A DNA stretch of 64,000 nucleotides, taken from Streptomyces chumphonensis. Its GTDB lineage: Bacteria; Actinomycetota; Actinomycetes; Streptomycetales; Streptomycetaceae. The stretch is taken from the NCBI RefSeq assembly GCF_014779715.1, contig NZ_JACXYU010000002.1, forward strand, positions 186,001-250,000, in the 5' to 3' direction. The position numbers and the translations under genes were made by a program. Of this stretch, positions 37,248-46,231 are shown piece after piece (the first letter of the stretch is position 1; each line of letters starts with the position of its first letter). The notes under the pieces are model-generated. The model worked only from the letters and a program-made list of their open reading frames with translations. It was not told the origin of the DNA and did no database searches.

Positions 37248-39530
37248 TCACACGGTCGCGGGGAAGCGGTCCCAGACGCGGTGCCGGGCCAGCAGCCGGG
37301 TGATCTCGGACAGGACGTCGGCCGGATCGCCGCCGGTGACCACGCCGGGCCCGCCCGGCGTGACACCGGCCGCCCGCAGGGCCTCCTCGCCGTCGGCCCA
37401 GCCGCCGACGGCCTTGGCGTGCCGGTACGCCTCGGCGACCAGCAGCAGGACGCGCGGGTCGGTGGCGGCCCGGCCGCCGTCGCCCGCCTTGGCGTCGCGG
37501 GCTCCGTGCGCGTCCTCGCCCGGTGCCGGGTTCCCGGCGAGCAGGACGGCGTCGAACTCCACCGAGCGGGCCGTCGCGAAGGTGCGCTGCACGGTGATCG
37601 GGTCGCCGTCGCCGTCGGTGAGCTCCCCTCCGGTGGGGGCGATGACGAGCGGCACCATGTCCGCGTCGAACACGGCCCGGCGCAGTGCCCGCACGCCCGC
37701 CAGGTCGCTTCCCGCATCGGCGACGATCCCGACGACGCGTCCGGTCACCGGCCACTCCCCGCCGACCTGGGAGAGCGCCGGGCTCGGCTCGACGGACGCC
37801 GGTGGCTCGGAGGGTTCGGGGACCGGCATGCCGAGTCCCTTGGCGACCTCCGCGCACAGCCGGGGGTCGATGGAGGCGAGCGTGCGCAGAGCGCGTTCCT
37901 TCACGGCGTTCTCGTAGCACTTGCCCAGCTCGAAGGAGTAGGCGGCGATGACGTGCTCCTGCTCCACGGGCGTGAGGCTGAGCCAGAAGCGGCGCGGTTG
38001 GCTGAAGTGGTCGTTGAAGGACGCGGGGGCCGCGCGCACCTTCGACGACTCGGCGATCGGCACCGGGACCTCGACGTAGCCCCCGGCCTCGGGGCCGGCG
38101 AGGAACGGGCAGCCGCCGTCGAGCGAGTTCGGACGGTAGGGCGCGACCCCCCGGTGGACGGCGTCCTGGTGCAGCCCGTCGCGGGTCATGTCGTTGACCG
38201 GCGCGTGGGGGCGGTTGACCGGGATCTGCGCGAAGTTCGGACCGCCCAGCCGGGTGATCTGGGTGTCGATGTAGGAGAAGAGGCGGCCCGCGAGCAGCGG
38301 ATCGTCCGTGACGTCGATGCCCGGCACCAGGTGGCCGGGGTGGAAGGCGACCTGCTCGGTCTCGGCGAAGTAGTTGGTCGGGTTGGCGTCGAGGGTGAGC
38401 AGCCCGATCGGCTGCACCGGCGCCAGCTCCTCGGGCACGATCTTCGTCGGGTCGAGCAGGTCGATGCCCTCGAAGGTCTGCTCGGGGGTGTCGGGGAAGA
38501 CCTGCACCCCCAGCTCCCACTGCGGGTGGGCACCCGCCTCGATGGCGTCGGCCAGGTCCCGCCGGTGGAAGTCGGGGTCCGCGCCGTTGATGAGCTGGGC
38601 CTCCTCCCACACCAGGGAGTGCACGCCCAGCTTCGGCTTCCAGTGGAACTTCACCAGCGTCGTCGCGCCCTCGGCGTTCACGAACCGGAAGGTGTGGACC
38701 CCGAAGCCCTCCATCATCCGGTAGGACCGGGGGATGCCCCGGTCGGACATGTTCCACAGCGTGTGGTGCGTGGCCTCCGTGTGCAGGGAGACGAAGTCCC
38801 AGAAGGTGTCGTGGGCGCTCTGGGCCTGCGGGATCTCCCGGTCCGGGTGCGGCTTTCCGGCGTGGATGACGTCGGGGAACTTGATGGCGTCCTGGATGAA
38901 GAAGACCGGGATGTTGTTGCCCACCAGGTCGAAGACGCCCTCGCCGGTGTAGAACTTCGTGGCGAATCCGCGCGTGTCGCGCACGGTGTCGGACGAACCG
39001 CGCGAGCCGAGCACGGTGGAGAAGCGCACGAACACCGGCGTCTCCACGCCCTTGCCGAGGAAGGCCGCCTTCGTGAGGTGCGCGGCCGTGCCGTACCCCT
39101 GGAAGAACCCGTGGGCGGCGGCGCCCCGCGCGTGGACGACGCGCTCGGGGATGCGTTCGTGGTCGAAGTGGGTGATCTTCTCCCGCAGGTGGTGGTCCTG
39201 GAGCAGGACCGGGCCGCGCGGTCCGGCCTTCAGCGAGTGGTCGGTGTCCGGCAGCCGCAGTCCCTGGGCTGTCGTCAGGCGTTCGCCGCGCTGGGCCACG
39301 GCCGCCGGATCCACGCCGGTCGGTTCGCCGGTGGGACTGACGGTCTTCGGCCCGCGCTGGTCGGGCTTCGGCGGCAGCGGGCCGCGGGGGCGGGTCGGCT
39401 CCTGCGGCGACGGCGGCTCGGGAGCCGGCCGACCGGGGATCTCGTCGTCCCCGGCGACCTGGCGCACGGCGGCCCGCGCCTTCTCGGCCGCCTTGTCCGC
39501 AGCGGCCTTCACGGGATTCGGCTGGTCCAT
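37248..39530 (-). CDS. katE: Large-subunit (clade 2) catalase KatE/HPII type
   Basis: 760 residues; ATG at 39530 with GGAGGAACG directly upstream. Order: a charged N-terminal extension rich in lysine, alanine and proline (about 1-75), the catalase core with catalytic His in VVHARGAAAHGFF, Asn in FDLVGNNIPVFF, heme-binding tyrosine in RLFSYIDTQ, and a C-terminal flavodoxin/DJ-1-like domain (about 600-760, GRVVGIVADAGSDLAGV) typical of large catalases. It removes hydrogen peroxide in the cytoplasm. Large catalases in streptomycetes are often under stress sigma control; the intergenic region upstream holds striking palindromes. Confidence 0.95.
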   Translation of the reverse strand: MDQPNPVKAAADKAAEKARAAVRQVAGDDEIPGRPAPEPPSPQEPTRPRGPLPPKPDQRGPKTVSPTGEPTGVDPAAVAQRGERLTTAQGLRLPDTDHSLKAGPRGPVLLQDHHLREKITHFDHERIPERVVHARGAAAHGFFQGYGTAAHLTKAAFLGKGVETPVFVRFSTVLGSRGSSDTVRDTRGFATKFYTGEGVFDLVGNNIPVFFIQDAIKFPDVIHAGKPHPDREIPQAQSAHDTFWDFVSLHTEATHHTLWNMSDRGIPRSYRMMEGFGVHTFRFVNAEGATTLVKFHWKPKLGVHSLVWEEAQLINGADPDFHRRDLADAIEAGAHPQWELGVQVFPDTPEQTFEGIDLLDPTKIVPEELAPVQPIGLLTLDANPTNYFAETEQVAFHPGHLVPGIDVTDDPLLAGRLFSYIDTQITRLGGPNFAQIPVNRPHAPVNDMTRDGLHQDAVHRGVAPYRPNSLDGGCPFLAGPEAGGYVEVPVPIAESSKVRAAPASFNDHFSQPRRFWLSLTPVEQEHVIAAYSFELGKCYENAVKERALRTLASIDPRLCAEVAKGLGMPVPEPSEPPASVEPSPALSQVGGEWPVTGRVVGIVADAGSDLAGVRALRRAVFDADMVPLVIAPTGGELTDGDGDPITVQRTFATARSVEFDAVLLAGNPAPGEDAHGARDAKAGDGGRAATDPRVLLLVAEAYRHAKAVGGWADGEEALRAAGVTPGGPGVVTGGDPADVLSEITRLLARHRVWDRFPATV

Positions 39531-39937
39531 CGTTCCTCCGCACCTCGGTACAGCGACGGCACTCCAAGTGACCGGGGGCCAGGGAGCCGAAACCGGGTGG
39601 AGGGGAATCTCACCCGGGCGAAGCGGTCCGGACCGCGCAGGACCGCACCGTTGGCCCGGACGCGTCCGGGCCAACGGCGGTGAGGCTCACTGCCGAACCT
39701 CCGGGCGGGACGGCGGCGCCGTGCCTCCCGCCGTACGGTCCGCAGCGACGCGCGTCGTTCCACCTCCCCCGGAGGGTGACTCCGAACGTGCGGGGGGAAA
39801 CCACTCGATTTCTCCGGCTCCGCCGCGGAGCGCCACGACCGGACGAATCGGGCGCTTGGCCCGGCCGGCCACGGGTACCCGCCGTGGTCCGCGGGCCGAG
39901 GGGCCCGCGTGGACGTGCGGGTCAAGGAGGTTCGAGC
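39531..39937. promoter_or_regulatory. Divergent katE / SDR intergenic region with palindromes and a sigma-B-like promoter
   Basis: This 407-bp gap has no convincing gene. It contains a perfect 14-bp palindrome GCGGTCCGGACCGC (39623-39636) and a perfect 30-bp palindrome (39648-39677, two 15-base arms with no spacer). Further right, GCTT (39854-39857), 15 bases, then GGGTAC (39873-39878) fits the general-stress sigma-B consensus GNNT-N14-16-GGGTAC and points at the SDR gene 60 bases downstream. Confidence 0.55.
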
Positions 39938-41107
39938 ATGCGGGTTCGCGGTTCCGTGGTGGTGGTGACGGGGGCGTCCGGCGGCATCGGCCGGGCCACG
40001 GCCAAGGCGTTCGCCCGAAGGGGGTGCGACGTCGTGCTGGCCGCCCGGCGCGTCCGGGCGTTGCGGGCGGCGGCCGAGGAGTGCGAGCGGCGGCGCGGTG
40101 CGCGCACCCTGGTCGTGCCCACCGACGTGACCGACAACCAGGAGGTGGCGTGGCTGGCGCACCGGACGCTGGAGGAGTTCGGCCGCATCGACGTGTGGGT
40201 GAACTGCGCCGCCGTCTCCGTCTTCGGGCCGTTCCAGGAGGTGCCGCTGCGGGACCTGCGCACGGTGCTGGACGTCAACGTCCTCGGGTGCGTGCACGGC
40301 GCCCGCTCGGCGTTGCGGGTGATGCGGGAGCAGGGCGGCGGGACGCTGGTCAACGTCTCCTCCGTCGTGGGCGAGGTGAGCCGGCCCTACACCCACGCCT
40401 ACGGCATGTCCAAGGCCGCCGTCCGCTCGCTCGGTGCGAGCCTGCGCCAGGAGCTGCTGCTGGAGGGGGAGGCGAACGTCCACGTGTGCACCGTGCTGCC
40501 CCCGACCGTCGACACGCCGCTCTTCCAGCACGCCGCGAACTACACGGGCCGCGAGGTGCTGGCCATGCCCCCGGTCCACAGCCTCGAACGGGTGGCCCGC
40601 GCCATCGTGAGCCTCGCGGCGAAGCCGCGCCGGGAGCTCGTGGTCGGGGCGTCCGCCCGCTCCGCGGTGCGCGGCGCGCGTCGGCGCCCGGCCCGGGCCG
40701 AACGGCTGATGGCCCGCCAGGTCGACCGACGGCACCTGTCCCGGCGGCGGACGGTCCACGCCGGACACGGGAACCTGTACCAGCCGGCCGCCGGGGAGGG
40801 CGCGGTGTCCGGCGGCTGGCGCGGTCGCCGGCGCAGGGCCGTGCGCCGGGCCGCGCTCGTGACGGCGGTGCTGTGGGCCGCAGCGGCGGGCGGGCGGGCC
40901 CTCCGCAGCGGCGGGCGGGCGGGCCCTGAGCCGTTGACGGGTCCGGGCGGGCGCGACGGCGGGCGCGGCGCGGGCCCGAGGAAGCGCCTCGGGCCCCGCC
41001 GCGCCGGTGGTGATCGGCGCGGCGGGGCCCGGAGCACCCGGTGCGGGTCGCGGGACGGGCCGGTCAGGTCCGGCGTTGCTCGGTGCCGAGGCCGAGGGCG
41101 CGCATGA
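39938..41107 (+). CDS. SDR oxidoreductase, 3' end frameshifted by a tandem duplication
   Basis: ATG at 39938 with AAGGAGG seven bases upstream. The classical short-chain dehydrogenase core is intact: TGASGGIG cofactor loop, NVSSVVGE catalytic serine, YGMSK catalytic Tyr/Lys and a C-terminal membrane-type helix (ALVTAVLWAAAAGG). The open frame runs to 41107 (389 residues) through the hairpin at 40991-41030 and into the convergent DUF2795 gene. A perfect 25-bp tandem duplication (40878-40927) explains this: with one copy the frame would end AGGRALSR at TGA 40935, giving 324 residues just before the terminator. Enzyme core is unaffected; substrate unknown. The sigma-B-like promoter upstream suggests stress expression. 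Confidence 0.88.
   Translation: MRVRGSVVVVTGASGGIGRATAKAFARRGCDVVLAARRVRALRAAAEECERRRGARTLVVPTDVTDNQEVAWLAHRTLEEFGRIDVWVNCAAVSVFGPFQEVPLRDLRTVLDVNVLGCVHGARSALRVMREQGGGTLVNVSSVVGEVSRPYTHAYGMSKAAVRSLGASLRQELLLEGEANVHVCTVLPPTVDTPLFQHAANYTGREVLAMPPVHSLERVARAIVSLAAKPRRELVVGASARSAVRGARRRPARAERLMARQVDRRHLSRRRTVHAGHGNLYQPAAGEGAVSGGWRGRRRRAVRRAALVTAVLWAAAAGGRALRSGGRAGPEPLTGPGGRDGGRGAGPRKRLGPRRAGGDRRGGARSTRCGSRDGPVRSGVARCRGRGRA
40878..40927. repeat. Perfect 25-bp tandem duplication
   Basis: Positions 40878-40902 and 40903-40927 are identical. As 25 is not a multiple of three, the second copy shifts the SDR frame by one base. Confidence 0.95.
40991..41030. terminator. Strong bidirectional terminator
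   Basis: A perfect 15-bp stem (40991-41005 with 41016-41030) and ten-base loop, located between the expected SDR stop (40937) and the DUF2795 stop (41064). The shifted SDR frame now reads through it. Confidence 0.85.
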
Positions 41108-41480
41108 TGTCCTGGACGTTGCCGAAGGTGTGCCCCGCCGGGAGCCGGGCGGCGAGGTCGACGAGGCGGTCCGGGGCGTTGTTCCCGCGGAGCGTGCGCA
41201 GGACGGCGTCGCGCTCCGCGGGATAGACGCTGATACCCAGGTGCCGCGCCAGTTCGTTGCGCAGCTCGACGTCGTCCGCGCCCATGCCGGGGGGCGTGCC
41301 GCCGGTCAGGGTGGTGCCGGGGGCCCGGTCGGTCTCGGGCTGGTCCTCCCCGGAGGGCTCCGCCTCGCGCGACTCGTCCGCGCGCGGGGATCGGCCGGCC
41401 CGCAGCTCTCCCCGCAGCGCCTCCTTGGCCGCGTCGTCCCTCATCGCCCCGCGCTTGCCTGGTCCGTGCTCCGTGGTCAT
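41064..41480 (-). CDS. DUF2795 protein
   Basis: 138 residues; ATG at 41480 with GGAGAGAGG upstream. A charged, disordered first half (about 1-75, many Glu, Asp, Arg) precedes a compact C-terminal DUF2795 domain (ELARHLGISVYPAERDAVL and LPAGHTFGNVQDIMRALGL). Function unknown; actinomycetes often keep such genes in stress neighbourhoods. Its last 44 bases are overlapped by the shifted SDR frame. Confidence 0.85.
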   Translation of the reverse strand: MTTEHGPGKRGAMRDDAAKEALRGELRAGRSPRADESREAEPSGEDQPETDRAPGTTLTGGTPPGMGADDVELRNELARHLGISVYPAERDAVLRTLRGNNAPDRLVDLAARLPAGHTFGNVQDIMRALGLGTEQRRT

Positions 41481-41706
41481 CGGGCCTCTCTCCTCCGGAA
41501 GCGGCGAGCCGGTCGGCGTCAGGTGCCGGCCGGGCCGTCTGTCCGCCGTGCGGCGTGGTGACGGCGCGGAGTACCCCGGCCCGGCCCGCCGAAACGATCG
41601 CCACCGCGGGGTTGACACGGCGCACGCCGGGGAACCCGCCGCGCTTCGGGCCCGGCAGGGCCCCGGCACGTTCACGTCTCACAGCCCCGGTCAAGGAGGG
41701 CCCACC

Positions 41707-42267
41707 ATGGGTCACGGCGGAAACGTCATCGACGAGCTCACCACCGACCACCGCGAGGTCGAGGAGCTCTTCGGCCGCATCGACGCGCTGCCGAAGGGTG
41801 ACGGCGGACGCAAGCACTACGCGGACCAGGTGACCATCGAGCTCGTGCGCCACTCGGTCGCCGAGGAGGAGTACCTCTACCCGGCCGTGCGCAGGTACGT
41901 GCCCGGCGGCGACCGCATCGCGGACCGGGAGCTCGCGGACCACGCCGAGGCCGAGCGGATCCTCAAGGACCTGGAGGGCAGCGAACCCGGGGACGCGGAC
42001 TTCGACCGGCTGATGTCCCGGCTCATGGACGAGGTCCGCAGGCACGTGGCCGACGAGGAGCAGAACCTCTTCCCCGCCCTGCGCGCCTCCACCACCCCCG
42101 ACGTCCTGGACGAGCTGGGCGAGAAGGTGCGGCGGGCCAAGAGGACCGCGCCCACCCGCCCGCACCCCTCGGCCCCCGACACCCCGCCCGGCGACAAGCT
42201 GCTCGGGCCGGCGGCGGGCATGGTCGACCGGATGCGCGACGCCCTCTCGGGCCGCGGCCGGCCCTGA
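41707..42267 (+). CDS. Hemerythrin-domain protein
   Basis: 186 residues; ATG at 41707 with AAGGAGGG seven bases upstream. A four-helix hemerythrin/HHE domain with iron-binding histidines and carboxylates in TTDHREVEELF, RHSVAEEEYLYP, ADHAEAERIL and RRHVADEEQNLFP, followed by a proline-rich tail. Such proteins bind oxygen or nitric oxide at a di-iron site or serve stress and iron sensing in streptomycetes. A TTGACA-like box at about 41610 may be its promoter. Terminated by the hairpin at 42282. Confidence 0.92.
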   Translation: MGHGGNVIDELTTDHREVEELFGRIDALPKGDGGRKHYADQVTIELVRHSVAEEEYLYPAVRRYVPGGDRIADRELADHAEAERILKDLEGSEPGDADFDRLMSRLMDEVRRHVADEEQNLFPALRASTTPDVLDELGEKVRRAKRTAPTRPHPSAPDTPPGDKLLGPAAGMVDRMRDALSGRGRP

Positions 42268-42356: not shown

Positions 42357-42896
42357 TCAGAAGTCGACGCGCACGTAGTGGTCGACCCGGCCCACGGACT
42401 CCAGGTCCCAGCGGCTGGTGTAGGCCCGGCGGATCTCCTCGATCGCCGCGTCACTGCGCCGCGCGGTGTCGGCCGGGTAGAGCAGGATCAGCTCGTAGGA
42501 CCGTTCGCCGTTGATGTCGCCCTCGCGGTCGCGCCACTGTCCGTACCCCTCCTGAAGGGTGAGGCCGGAGGGGAAGCGCGGGGTGATCTCGCGGTCCAGG
42601 AACGCGTGGAACTCCTCCTCGGTGATGGGCGGATTCCCGTGGTGGCGGCCGGTCCCGAAGAACAGCCGCGTCTCCAGGTACCGGTCCCCCCGCTCCCGGC
42701 CGCGCCCGGCGGCCGGTGCGACGTCCGCCGTCTGCGCGGCCGGTGTGTGGGCGGGCAGGACGGCCCCGCTCCCCTCCCGGTCGAGCGCGACGAGGAGGAG
42801 GGCGAAGGCGCTGGTGACCAGTGCGGCCAGGGCCATGGCGGTCCTGGCGGTCGTTCCGTGCGGTCGGCGCGGTGACGCGCCGGAGGTGCTCCTCAC
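42357..42896 (-). CDS. DUF3574 membrane-anchored/secreted protein
   Basis: 179 residues; GTG at 42896 overlaps the stop of the upstream gene (GTGA). A basic N-terminus and a hydrophobic helix (MALAALVTSAFALLLVAL, about 21-38) suggest export or anchoring. The C-terminal about 110 residues match the DUF3574 pattern (ETRLFFGTGR, EEFHAFLDREITPRFP, GLTLQEGYGQWRD, ELILLYPAD). Function unknown. Coupled to the helical-repeat gene, so it probably belongs to the ImmA/MAB_1171c cassette. Confidence 0.85.
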   Translation of the reverse strand: MRSTSGASPRRPHGTTARTAMALAALVTSAFALLLVALDREGSGAVLPAHTPAAQTADVAPAAGRGRERGDRYLETRLFFGTGRHHGNPPITEEEFHAFLDREITPRFPSGLTLQEGYGQWRDREGDINGERSYELILLYPADTARRSDAAIEEIRRAYTSRWDLESVGRVDHYVRVDF

Positions 42897-43876
42897 GTGA
42901 GCGGGCTCCCTTCTGCGGGACCCGTGTGGCACGGGCCCGACGTCCCGCCGTCGTACGGTGACGGCAGGGTGGTCCACAGGTGCCGCGCGGCGTCCCGCAG
43001 CGGTCCGGGCGGGCGCGGGTCGGCGGCGGCCGTCCGGGCGGCCCGCTCCAGCAGGGTCGTCGCGCGGGCCGATCCGATGACGTGCGCGTGCCCGCTGAGC
43101 CGGGTGGCGAGCTCCGTCGCGTCGTGCCAGGCCGCCGCGCGCAGCTGGGCCGTGAGGAGCTGGGCGTCGAACAGCGCCCGGAACCCCGTCGTCCCGGCCG
43201 GGGCGCCGGGCGCCGCCGTGAGGGTGTCGACGGCCCGGCCCCACGCACCGAGCCCGGCGTGGACGAGGCCCGCGTGTCCGGCGACCTCGTCCTCGTCCAC
43301 CCACCACGCCCAGGCGGGGTCGCGGGGCCCCGGGCCCTCCGCGACGAGGGCGCCGGCCCGGCCGAGGGCCCGCAGAGCGTCCGGCCGCCGCCCGGCCAGG
43401 GCGTGCGCGCCGGCCTCCCGGAGCCGGAAGACGGCGGCGACCCGCGCGGGGAGGCGGGGTCCGTCCAGCACGTCCCGCGCGAGGCGCAGGGCCGCGTCGG
43501 GACGGCCGAGGTGCGCGGCCTGCATGCTCAGGGTCGCGAGGACGAGGTGCTCCACGGATCGCTCGCCGCAGCCGCGCGCCAGGGTCAGGGCCAGTCGGCT
43601 GAACCGGTGTGCCGCCCGGTGCCGTTCGGCGTCGAACAGCAGCCACCCCGCGACCTGGGCCAGTTCGGCCAGCGCCGCGTCCGCCCCGCCGCCGGGCTCT
43701 GCGGCCCGGTCGCCGAGGTGACGCCGCAGGGCGAGGGCGCGGCCGGCCCGGCGGGCGGCCTCGGGGCCGGCCGCCACCGCGCCGGCGCGGGCCTCCAGCG
43801 CGAGCACGGCACCGGTGGCCGCGCGCACGCGGCGGGCGAACTCCTCCGCCGTCAGCGGCGGTCTGCCGGGCTCCAT
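42893..43876 (-). CDS. Helical-repeat (TPR-like) protein without HTH
   Basis: 327 residues; ATG at 43876 with GAAGGAG upstream. Alanine/arginine/leucine-rich helices with repeat-like phrasing (AAHRFSRLALTLARGCGERSVEHLVLATLSMQAAHLGRPDAALRLA) resemble the C-terminal sensor half of streptomycete XRE-TPR regulators, but no DNA-binding domain is visible. It could be a regulator that lost its HTH or a protein-interaction partner of the neighbouring peptidase. Separated by 105 bases from the membrane protein gene and coupled to DUF3574. Confidence 0.75.
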   Translation of the reverse strand: MEPGRPPLTAEEFARRVRAATGAVLALEARAGAVAAGPEAARRAGRALALRRHLGDRAAEPGGGADAALAELAQVAGWLLFDAERHRAAHRFSRLALTLARGCGERSVEHLVLATLSMQAAHLGRPDAALRLARDVLDGPRLPARVAAVFRLREAGAHALAGRRPDALRALGRAGALVAEGPGPRDPAWAWWVDEDEVAGHAGLVHAGLGAWGRAVDTLTAAPGAPAGTTGFRALFDAQLLTAQLRAAAWHDATELATRLSGHAHVIGSARATTLLERAARTAAADPRPPGPLRDAARHLWTTLPSPYDGGTSGPCHTGPAEGSPLT

Positions 43877-43981
43877 GGGCGGGCTCCTTCGGTGCCGGGA
43901 GTGGTACGTGCCCTCGTGCCCTCGTGGCGGCGGGGCGGGCGAACGGGAACGGCAGGGGGACCGTACGGGCCGGACGGCCGT

Positions 43982-45196
43982 TCAGGAACCCGTCGGGGCG
44001 CGGTCCCCGGCCGGGGTGCGGTGCCCGGCAAGGCGGCGGAAGTGCCCGGCCACCTCGGTCAGCCAGGCGATCTCCTCGGTGATGTCGCCGTCGGGTGCGT
44101 GCGTGAACGCCTCGACCGGACCACCGGACGGCGCCGCACCCGCCTCCCGGGCGTCGAGCGCGCCCCGGAGCAGCAGTGCCTCGTGGGCCGTCGACGGGGC
44201 GGCCTCCGGCAGGCCGAGCCGCCGGGCCTCCTGCCGGAGCGCGGTGGGGTCCATGTAGGGACGCAGGGCCAGTTGGCCGTCCCGGATCTCGATCACCCGC
44301 CGGTAGAGCCGGTACTCCAGGTCGCGTCGGGGGACGAGGTCGTACAGCCGCGAGGGCGGGTCGTCCAGAGCGATGCCGGGGTGGGCCCGGTACAGGGCCC
44401 ACCACAGCGGACGCAGCCGCCGGTAGGAGCGGTAGTGGCCGCACCACCGGACCGCTTCGGAGAGCCGGGGCCCCCAGGACGGCACGGTCCAGCCGAAGAC
44501 CTGGAGCAGCGAGCCGATGCTCCCGGCGATCCAGTACAGGTCGGGCCACGGTTCGGGGAGGGCGGTGTACAGGCCGGCGATCTGGAGGTACCGCGTCAGG
44601 CAGTAGACGAGGATGAGCGAGCCGCCGACGGCCACCGCCCACATGCCCGAACGCAGCCAGGAGCGGTGCGCGATCTGCGCGTAGCGCAGCGACAGCCGCA
44701 CGGTCTCGACCTGCCCGACGGCGCAGATCGCGAGGTAGAAGGCGAAGTAGGCGGCGTAGCCGGGGTTCTCCAGGTTGATCAGGACGACGACCTCGGCCGA
44801 GCCGTGCCGGCCGGGCGGGTTGACGAAGAAGAAGAGCACGGCCAGGACGGCGAGGGCCGCGGCGTACCCGAGCGTCCTGTTGCGCGCCTTCGTCCGTGCC
44901 CGCTCCGGCGCGTGGGACCAGTGCACGAGGACGACCTGCTGGGCGGCCGTCAGGACGACCACGGCGGCCTGGCACAGGAACGTCGTGATGCTGGGGTAGT
45001 GCAGCAGCCGGGCGATGTCGTCGCGGATCTGGTCGAGTTCGACGAAGAAGCTGAGGCTGGAACAGAGGAAGTACAGGCACAGGGCGAGGTACGCGACGTC
45101 GCCGCGGTGCCGGGGCAGGGCGGGCAGCTTGTAGAGCAGGGCGACGAGACCGCCGAGCGCGCAGGCCCAGGAGAGGACTTGGTAGAACGTGGTCAC
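43982..45196 (-). CDS. MAB_1171c-like seven-helix membrane protein
   Basis: 404 residues; GTG at 45196 overlaps the peptidase stop (GTGA). Seven hydrophobic helices in the first about 235 residues (for example VLSWACALGGLVALLYKL, AYLALCLYFLCSSLSFF, AAVVVLTAAQQVVLVHW, LILVYCLTRYLQIAGLY), then a cytoplasmic domain with WWALYRAHPGIALDDP, LEYRLYRRVIEIRDG and a C-terminal tail. This matches the actinobacterial MAB_1171c family labelled putative transporter; transport has not been shown. It is regularly found next to ImmA/IrrE genes, and the overlap here supports a joint function. Confidence 0.85.
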   Translation of the reverse strand: MTTFYQVLSWACALGGLVALLYKLPALPRHRGDVAYLALCLYFLCSSLSFFVELDQIRDDIARLLHYPSITTFLCQAAVVVLTAAQQVVLVHWSHAPERARTKARNRTLGYAAALAVLAVLFFFVNPPGRHGSAEVVVLINLENPGYAAYFAFYLAICAVGQVETVRLSLRYAQIAHRSWLRSGMWAVAVGGSLILVYCLTRYLQIAGLYTALPEPWPDLYWIAGSIGSLLQVFGWTVPSWGPRLSEAVRWCGHYRSYRRLRPLWWALYRAHPGIALDDPPSRLYDLVPRRDLEYRLYRRVIEIRDGQLALRPYMDPTALRQEARRLGLPEAAPSTAHEALLLRGALDAREAGAAPSGGPVEAFTHAPDGDITEEIAWLTEVAGHFRRLAGHRTPAGDRAPTGS

Positions 45197-45771
45197 GGTC
45201 GCTCCCCCTGGACGTCCGGTCCGACGACGTTCTCGATGCGGGCGAGGGTCTGCGCCGCCTCGGCGGGCACGGGCCAACTGGCCTCCGCGGGCCGGCGCCG
45301 CACGCGCGTGAGCAGCATGGAGGCCATCACCTCCGCCTCCTGCTCCTCGGCCGCCAGGTAGCCGCACCGCCCCAGCATGCCGCGCACGGTGGACGGCTCC
45401 AGGTGCGGGAACAGGGTGCCGATCGTCGCGTCGTCCAGGTCGCCGCCGCCGTGGTGGTCGCAGAGGATGTGGGCGAGTTCGTGGGCGACGATGTGCTCCT
45501 GGTGGAGGCGGCTGGTACGGGCCTCGTAGAGCACGAAGTCGGCTTCGTGGGTGGCGATCCAGAGCCCGTAGACCCCGGAGTCGCGCAGGTCCACGGGCGC
45601 GGTGCGCACGGAGCGGCCGCGGCTGCGGCCCACCTGCGCGCAGAGGGCGAAGACGTCGGGCGGGTCACCGACGTCGAGCGCGGTGAGGATGTCCTCGCAT
45701 CCCCGGCGCAGGGCTTTGAGGTGACGGCCTCGCCGCTGCCGCGCGTTCGGGCGGGAAGAGGCGGCGTTCAT
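45193..45771 (-). CDS. ImmA/IrrE-family zinc metallopeptidase
   Basis: 192 residues; ATG at 45771 with GGAG six bases upstream. Catalytic zinc motif HELAH in EHIVAHELAHILCDHH (near residue 100), with a downstream glutamate-rich helix (AAEEQEAEVMASMLL) supplying the third ligand. Family members cleave repressors (ImmR, DdrO) in response to DNA damage or mobile-element signals. No XRE repressor is adjacent, so its target is not obvious; the co-transcribed seven-helix protein could be a signal receptor. First gene of the cassette. Confidence 0.88.
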   Translation of the reverse strand: MNAASSRPNARQRRGRHLKALRRGCEDILTALDVGDPPDVFALCAQVGRSRGRSVRTAPVDLRDSGVYGLWIATHEADFVLYEARTSRLHQEHIVAHELAHILCDHHGGGDLDDATIGTLFPHLEPSTVRGMLGRCGYLAAEEQEAEVMASMLLTRVRRRPAEASWPVPAEAAQTLARIENVVGPDVQGERP

Positions 45772-45925: not shown

Positions 45926-46231
45926 ATGACGCCTTCTTCCGGCTCCGCTCCTTCCGGCTCCGCGTGGCGGGCGCTGCGGACCCCGCCGCTCCCCGCCGCT
46001 GACGAAACGATTCCCCCACCCGGCACCACGCCCATCTACAGCGCCTTGCGACAGCAGTGGGCCGCGGCACGACGAACCGTTCCGGGACGGGTCGACCCCG
46101 AATGGGCCGCGCTCGTGGACTACGCGGCCTGGCGGGAGGCGTCCGCCGGGTGCGGGCGGCACGCTCCCCCGGATCCGCGCCGCGAGGGCGGATCGGGGCG
46201 TTCCGGCCCGGGAGCGTTCCCGCTGGCCTAG
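45926..46231 (+). CDS. Small conserved hypothetical protein
   Basis: 101 residues; ATG at 45926, weak GGTGGGA eleven bases upstream. Serine/proline-rich start, then a compact segment PPGTTPIYSALRQQWAAARRTVPGRVDPEWAALVDY that looks conserved (a short helical motif seen in small streptomycete proteins), and a glycine-rich tail. Divergent from the ImmA/IrrE gene and 43 bases upstream of hyuA. Function unknown. Confidence 0.65.
   Translation: MTPSSGSAPSGSAWRALRTPPLPAADETIPPPGTTPIYSALRQQWAAARRTVPGRVDPEWAALVDYAAWREASAGCGRHAPPDPRREGGSGRSGPGAFPLA

Follow-up and report, generated by a model that had tools for sequence, protein, structure and literature searches.

What might a zinc peptidase of the repressor-cleaving kind do in a conserved gene set that holds no repressor? 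This question is raised by a cassette of Streptomyces chumphonensis located in a stretch of 64,000 nucleotides (nt) of contig NZ_JACXYU010000002.1 (positions 186,001 to 250,000), the whole of which is called the window below. Four minus-strand genes at window positions 42357-45771 encode an ImmA/IrrE-like peptidase, a membrane protein of the DUF6545/MAB_1171c family, a tetratricopeptide repeat (TPR) protein and a DUF3574 protein, and all four were found where a first-pass annotation had put them. Comparison with related loci presents the cassette as one branch of a kind of regulatory operon that is common in streptomycetes and composed of an XRE gene, an ImmA-like peptidase gene, a DUF6545 gene and often an enzyme gene. 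The cassette lacks the XRE gene and keeps the peptidase with its zinc motif intact.

A conserved cassette from which the repressor gene is missing

A simple gene caller based on codon usage served to read the neighbourhoods, which were then verified by six-frame profile searches. A scan of species genomes with a DUF6545 protein gave 18 named loci, 17 from Streptomyces and one from Actinomadura. Overall, an ImmA-like peptidase, DUF6545 and a TPR protein are encoded in the same order at 23 distinct streptomycete loci (the window, L034, L051-L063, L065-L067, L112-L114, L245 and L247), and DUF3574 completes the set at 22 of them, being unseen at L067 because the contig stops inside the TPR gene. 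L110 and L111, whose DUF6545 proteins are identical to those of L058 and L056, are not counted. One gene order at 23 distinct loci is beyond chance, which settles the doubt raised when the set was first proposed, namely that its members might show no conserved co-occurrence. At a further locus, L105, six-frame searches found the TPR gene without XRE, peptidase or DUF6545. Within subclades, cassette loci have chromosomal neighbours in common.

The cassette is rare, adjacent matches to DUF6545, the TPR protein and DUF3574 being present in 7 of 199 genomes of the genus, that of the window included. DUF3574 matches occur in 84 of these 199 genomes, and the seven best belong to exactly the seven cassette genomes. 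When 394 genomes from 137 genera of the class were searched, DUF6545 proteins of the cassette clade (E ≤ 1e-85) were confined to the genus itself, in 5 genomes, one of which (L248) holds an XRE-bearing relative without TPR or DUF3574.

In relatives, the repressor gene is the rule. Sixty other DUF6545 loci (L252-L311) were hand-picked from the genus listing, several from one genome, with cassettes, loci fetched earlier and many partial matches omitted. Six-frame searches within 2.5 kb found peptidase and XRE together at 56 loci, peptidase only at three and XRE only at one, hence an XRE at 57 and a peptidase at 59. These figures supersede a count of called genes (both 43, peptidase only 10, XRE only 5, neither 1, and one locus, L255, whose uncalled DUF6545 is present in the six-frame search). 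An earlier group of 19 loci (L031-L033, L035-L050) carries an XRE at 18, all but L032; the XRE at L046 was missed by the gene caller and recovered in six frames. L108, also searched in six frames, holds XRE, peptidase and DUF6545. The XRE proteins of relatives are mostly 110-210 aa long, and 10 of the 15 aligned match Pfam HTH_3 at E ≤ 0.01.

By six-frame profile searches, an XRE of this class is found at none of the 23 cassette loci, whereas the peptidase is kept at all 23. The remark of the first-pass annotation that no repressor target is visible nearby is therefore true of the entire set; what that picture had lacked was the ordinary setting, with XRE encoded in cis and an enzyme gene frequently downstream in relatives, and the nature of the TPR protein as a truncated member of the NsdA family. 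In a DUF6545 tree, a single clade of 25 (support 100/99) unites the cassette loci with four members that carry an XRE, namely L064, L107, L109 and L068. The first branch of this clade, L064 from Actinomadura, carries XRE, peptidase, DUF6545 and TPR without DUF3574, L107 and L109 diverge from cassette rows at an unresolved fork, and L068 groups with the subclade of the window (96/90), all on long branches. XRE and DUF3574 occur together at no locus of the clade, nor at L108 and L248, which lie off the tree. Judged from this distribution, the absence of XRE from the cassette looks derived and may reflect more than one loss.

A co-directional gene follows DUF6545 within 300 nt at 39 of the 59 sampled loci with a called DUF6545, and these genes comprise 15 amidases, 15 P450-like genes, 3 aldo/keto reductases, 2 AMP-binding, 2 FAD-type and 2 encoding proteins of 192 aa. 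Families were assigned from one representative per group, the 192-aa pair having no Pfam match; all 15 P450-like genes match the one at L050, which hits PF00067, and the 110-residue start of the P450-like representative alone has no Pfam match. In the cassette, this slot is occupied by the TPR and DUF3574 genes, neither of which lies next to DUF6545 in the sampled relatives. Since relatives place enzyme genes there, TPR and DUF3574 are read as outputs or modulators and not as part of the switch core. No description of the operon form with XRE, peptidase, DUF6545 and enzyme gene was found in the open-access literature searched.

Gene layout and the four proteins

Table 1. Features of the cassette and of the adjoining divergent open reading frame (ORF); coordinates are window positions.
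Feature	Position	Strand	Basis
ImmA/IrrE-like (M78-like) zinc peptidase, 192 aa	45193..45771	-	HELAH and distal EQEAE
DUF6545/MAB_1171c-family seven-helix membrane protein with cytoplasmic tail, 404 aa	43982..45196	-	NF042915, PF20182, hydropathy, AlphaFold2 model
TPR-like protein of the NsdA family, lacking the N-terminal third of that family, 327 aa	42893..43876	-	NF053720, AlphaFold2 model
DUF3574 protein with N-terminal hydrophobic segment, probably exported, 179 aa	42357..42896	-	PF12098
Small divergent ORF, 101 aa, which may be a fifth cassette gene in part of the window's subclade	45926..46231	+	phmmer kin

The peptidase stop and the DUF6545 start share 4 nt, an overlap kept at 15 of the 19 loci compared (gap of at most 3 nt at 18 of 19), so that the coupling of peptidase to membrane protein, as first annotated, is a recurring trait. 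DUF6545 and the TPR gene are 105 nt apart in the window and overlap at 7 of 18 other loci compared (own gene calls). The TPR stop overlaps the DUF3574 start if the GTG start at 42896 is taken, the gene caller having placed the start 60 nt further in, and a 4-nt overlap of this pair recurs at 6 of 16 other complete loci compared. A sigma-70/terminator scan of the locus found nothing.

The HELAH motif of the peptidase lies at residues 97-101, and the zinc-site residues H97, E98, H101 and E143/E145/E147 are invariant among 17 aligned proteins. Its Pfam M78 (PF06114) score of 19.2 bits is under the gathering cut-off of 22, and the protein is thus filed as ImmA/IrrE-like by motif and context; these two bear out the repressor-cleaving class announced at first, although the family cut-off is missed. 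Among the 17 aligned peptidases, 14 match M78 at E ≤ 0.01, the best at 1.2e-4. PADLOC gives a weak, partial capP match (2.7e-5, 21.8 bits, profile 5-112 of 242), found at E ≤ 0.001 in 13 of the 17, and two still weaker matches with E above 0.04. Solved structures searched by sequence returned one chance-level match only.

The membrane protein scores 304 bits against NF042915 (MAB_1171c family; cut-off 100), covering profile positions 1-360 of 362, and 127.5 bits against PF20182 over residues 250-387. Its description as a seven-helix protein is supported by seven hydropathy segments and by seven long helices in an AlphaFold2 model (predicted local distance difference test, pLDDT, 84.7). Averaged over 19 relatives, lysines plus arginines number 2.6, 4.6 and 3.8 in loops 1, 3 and 5 and about 10 at the start of the tail, and 1.5, 2.0 and 0.4 in loops 2, 4 and 6; the basic loops 1, 3 and 5 and the tail lead to a predicted N-out/C-in topology. 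All 50 rows listed by VIA-align for the model are G-protein-coupled receptors (GPCRs) or designed GPCR-like folds (Z 15.3-17.3), a likeness taken as a hint because the Foldseek matches are weak (E 0.013 or worse, best template modelling score 0.38) and the structure library is rich in GPCRs. By sequence, no solved structure was matched at E ≤ 1. The genome of the window (G000, 5.8 Mb) holds three more DUF6545 paralogues (C23:94371, C23:393393 and C52:42809), each with a peptidase, and the one at C23:393393 (L032) has no adjoining XRE.

The third protein, first described as helical-repeat and TPR-like, has this repeat character and belongs more exactly to the NsdA family (NF053720, 130 bits for a cut-off of 75), with an alignment over profile positions 145-419 of 432 that leaves positions 1-144 uncovered. 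The family is matched at E ≤ 1e-5 by 18 of 18 aligned TPR proteins, and the relatives are 290-368 aa long (own gene calls). The protein reaches 50.7 bits of the 830 required for the NsdA equivalog and 39.6 of the 700 for NsdB, far under both cut-offs. The missing third would correspond to a DNA-binding part, as the names of the family would have it; that the protein is "headless" in this sense we infer only, because a Pfam search with the longer relative L249 showed TPR repeats and no helix-turn-helix (HTH). The accessible text of PMC12243394 contains nothing on NsdA domains. The AlphaFold2 model is all helical (pLDDT 89.5) and superposes nearly end to end on the Rap structure 4gyo (Z 17.8, 4.1 Å, 271 residues), with Z of 17.5 for phage Raps, 16.8 for NprR and 17.6 for MalT; generic TPR proteins reach values as high or higher (APPBP2 18.9, TSK 18.5). 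By sequence, solved structures gave one weak TPR match (7.5e-4) and otherwise chance-level ones. Each of the 199 genus genomes encodes proteins that match the TPR profile at E ≤ 1e-10, many of them in longer open frames. At L100, L101, L103 and L104, the gene calls give further NsdA-type proteins, about 300-330 aa long and short at the N-terminus, and neither a peptidase nor DUF6545 was called in the 12 kb retrieved.

The DUF3574 protein matches PF12098 over the full profile (1-103 of 103; 108.7 bits for a cut-off of 25). The core is conserved among these proteins and the N-terminus is variable and, by eye, hydrophobic. The earlier claim of an exported DUF3574 protein coupled to the TPR gene thus holds for the overlap if the GTG start is used, and export is probable from the hydrophobic segment. 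No solved structure was matched by sequence at E ≤ 1.

The small divergent ORF upstream of the peptidase bears the motif TPIYxxLxxQW...VPGRxDxEW; among 38 loci searched, kin in divergent position were found at L053 and L054 only (phmmer 2.7e-22 and 3.5e-13), and a Pfam search gave no match. On the other side, the cassette adjoins catalase-like (by eye), short-chain dehydrogenase/reductase, DUF2795 and hemerythrin-domain genes at 37248-42267, perhaps a stress island.

A proposed membrane-signalled switch with a distant or changed substrate

We propose, as the reading we favour but hold with slightly more doubt than belief, that the cassette is a membrane-signalled repressor-cleavage switch whose output slot carries TPR and DUF3574 and whose substrate is distant or changed. 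DUF6545 would detect a compound, either at the membrane or outside it, and would activate or release the coupled peptidase by way of its tail and its basic cytoplasmic loops. In the usual operons, the peptidase would then cut XRE and the operon would be derepressed; cleavage of such repressors by activated ImmA, IrrE and CapP is established (PMC11841131, PMC10233336; all papers are cited here for the portions of their text that were accessible). A signal supplied by the membrane protein is the simplest reading of ordinary DUF6545 operons. As the neighbouring XRE is gone, the peptidase of the cassette must cut a repressor from elsewhere or another protein, and the conservation of the zinc site and of the coupling to DUF6545 makes it most likely that it still cuts something. 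Candidates for cleavage would be a distant XRE, an NsdA-family protein or the partnering TPR protein, which may itself serve as an adaptor that binds peptides or proteins, or may compete with full-length NsdA-type regulators. The role of the set had been called undescribed, and indeed relevant open-access literature was found for neither DUF6545 nor DUF3574, MAB_1171c appearing only in a mutant survey (PMC8707978, accessible text).

In a bolder form that we deem unlikely, DUF6545 proteins would be receptor-like seven-helix sensors, present in several copies in some streptomycetes, that switch on a site-specific metallopeptidase, and the system would be rewired here through relocation of the repressor and the addition of a Rap-like TPR protein and its exported partner. 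A Rap-like role of the TPR protein, drawn from a generic fold and gene order, is possible.

A trans-encoded XRE was sought in 14 cassette genomes with XRE and peptidase profiles. An orthologous orphan XRE is common to five genomes of the window's subclade (G000 and G223-G226; L179-L183) and is a suggestive candidate for the substrate. Its orthologues (at least 70% identity) are present in 19 of the 199 genus genomes, at 17 of 19 beside a peptidase and DUF6545, and in that set the orphan state is seen only in the genome of the window and in G113 (no DUF6545 match at E ≤ 1e-20); another cassette genome, G035, has its own copy still paired. TTAAC lies upstream of the orphan XRE and of the paired G035 orthologue at 6 of 6 loci and GTTAA at 5 of 6. 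At L179 (G000:C12:461k) and L183, the orphan XRE has genes for binding proteins and permeases nearby that, by eye, are of the iron-siderophore type. A second orphan XRE type, in G035 (L184), is not specific to cassette genomes: at least 10 of its 15 orthologues (at least 66% identity) are paired, and the five unpaired (G035, G018, G173, G116 and G114) include four cassette-less genomes. In clade 3, to which G062, G102, G227, G197, G191 and G192 belong, two unpaired XREs were seen in G191, one of them at the end of a contig, and a single weak one in G192. Upstream of the peptidase, nine of ten clade-3 loci (L055, L056, L058, L059, L060, L067, L112, L113 and L114, L247 being without it) carry a 32-bp block with 0-4 mismatches; all 440 shuffled upstreams had at least 10 mismatches to this pattern, which was drawn from the same sequences. 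Each of 8 genomes contains a single copy of a 29-bp form of the block, and none has a second site beside a regulator.

Several points weigh against the proposed switch. The profile search of the 14 genomes did not find the substrate of the peptidase; in G062, G102, G227 and G229 no listed XRE of the class is more than about 2.5 kb away from a peptidase, and G197 has a single one, weak and unpaired. As its orthologues are mostly paired, the orphan XRE of the window's subclade may reflect one shared loss, and the 450 nt that precede the cassette peptidase gene contain neither GTTAAG nor CTTAAC at the five loci of this subclade. DUF6545 precedes XRE and peptidase at 10 of the 60 sampled loci, so that the operon form is not fixed. 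The contrast that speaks for it, XRE at 1 of 24 TPR-bearing loci (L064) versus 57 of 60 sampled relatives, has a Fisher value of 2e-16 that is overstated because the loci are related. Finally, neither the transporter name given by NCBI to the DUF6545 family nor the biofilm phenotype of Mycobacterium abscessus discussed below needs a sensor role.

Alternative explanations

A peptide switch as in ICEBs1, in which the TPR protein would act like RapI on the peptidase and DUF3574 or a piece of it like PhrI, appears improbable to us. ICEBs1 offers a precedent, in which RapI causes the protease ImmA to cleave the repressor ImmR and the peptide PhrI is inhibitory (PMC11841131), and the near end-to-end match of the TPR model with Rap, the scores for phage Raps and NprR and the TPR-DUF3574 overlap, here with a GTG start, are in its favor. 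However, unrelated TPR proteins, MalT among them, score equally well or better, DUF3574, as a conserved domain some 103 residues long, is not a short pre-peptide, only 7 of the 84 genomes that encode it have the cassette, and sampled relatives have neither TPR nor DUF3574 beside DUF6545.

It is likewise doubtful that the TPR protein competes with full-length NsdA-type regulators through inactive mixed complexes, with an output to development or secondary metabolism. Membership of all 18 aligned proteins in the NsdA family, the uncovered profile positions of the window protein, the abundance of TPR-profile matches, many in longer frames, throughout the genus and the place of the TPR gene in the enzyme slot of relatives would all agree with such a competitor. 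Yet the contact with full-length family members that this reading needs is hypothetical, the longer relative L249 shows no Pfam HTH, so that the missing part is only putatively DNA-binding, and DUF3574 finds no explanation.

DUF6545 might also be a transporter and the peptidase a regulator of its operon, which we judge quite unlikely. The NCBIfam name of NF042915 is "MAB_1171c family putative transporter", and the M. abscessus MAB_1171c mutant, whose gene is labelled "Integral membrane transporter protein", forms about half the biofilm, which the authors attribute to defective transport (PMC8707978). The accessible text of this survey nevertheless reports no transport measured for MAB_1171c, and the seven-helix model is nearest to receptors and designed receptor-like folds, with the Foldseek caveat given above.

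A toxin-antitoxin or anti-phage module with an ImmA/CapP-type protease is very improbable: a survey lists pairs of XRE and COG2856 protease among candidate toxin-antitoxin systems (PMC2701414) and the peptidase has its weak capP match, but PADLOC gives nothing at E ≤ 1 for DUF6545, TPR and DUF3574, so that the defence role once suggested is not upheld, metabolic enzyme genes are often downstream in relatives, chromosomal neighbours are shared within subclades (no search being made for mobile-element or CBASS genes), and the same 2009 survey set aside three pairs of XRE and membrane protein, no type II system with a membrane part being known.

If the membrane-signalled switch is true, it would be a general streptomycete way to sense chemicals at the membrane and to express an amidase, a P450 or another enzyme, and MAB_1171c/DUF6545, a whole uncharacterised family, would gain a testable job. 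The cassette itself offers a natural experiment in which an operon lost its repressor and kept the active site of its peptidase. Most of what is known of XRE-peptidase pairs concerns DNA-damage switches in mobile elements, in the radiation response and in defence systems. A seven-helix protein as their regular partner, at the sampled streptomycete DUF6545 loci, is of more interest than the cassette alone.

Comparison with known systems

The cassette resembles ICEBs1 by its ImmA-class peptidase and by the gene of a probably exported protein beside the TPR gene. A TPR protein without HTH, which in ICEBs1 has the Rap fold, is also common to ICEBs1 and the cassette. Unlike ICEBs1, the cassette has no XRE in cis, encodes a seven-helix membrane protein and carries a DUF3574 domain in place of a peptide precursor. 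IrrE-DdrO of Deinococcus and CapP-CapH of CBASS (cyclic oligonucleotide-based anti-phage signalling system) rely on a zinc peptidase of the same motif class that cuts a repressor on a signal; they respond to DNA damage (PMC10233336), whereas the cassette peptidase is coupled to a membrane protein and has no XRE. NsdA and NsdB are related to the cassette TPR protein, which passes the NsdA-family cut-off but stays far under the equivalog cut-offs, lacks the N-terminal third and has a peptidase and DUF6545 as neighbours. MAB_1171c of M. abscessus is known as a gene-knockout mutant with the reduced biofilm (PMC8707978) and belongs to the same NCBIfam subfamily as the cassette DUF6545 (304 bits versus 100). 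Finally, the accessible text of the XRE-COG2856 survey names no DUF6545 partner or enzyme output, but the pairs that it describes, an XRE and an HExxH peptidase in one operon, are the usual form of the relatives of the cassette (PMC2701414).

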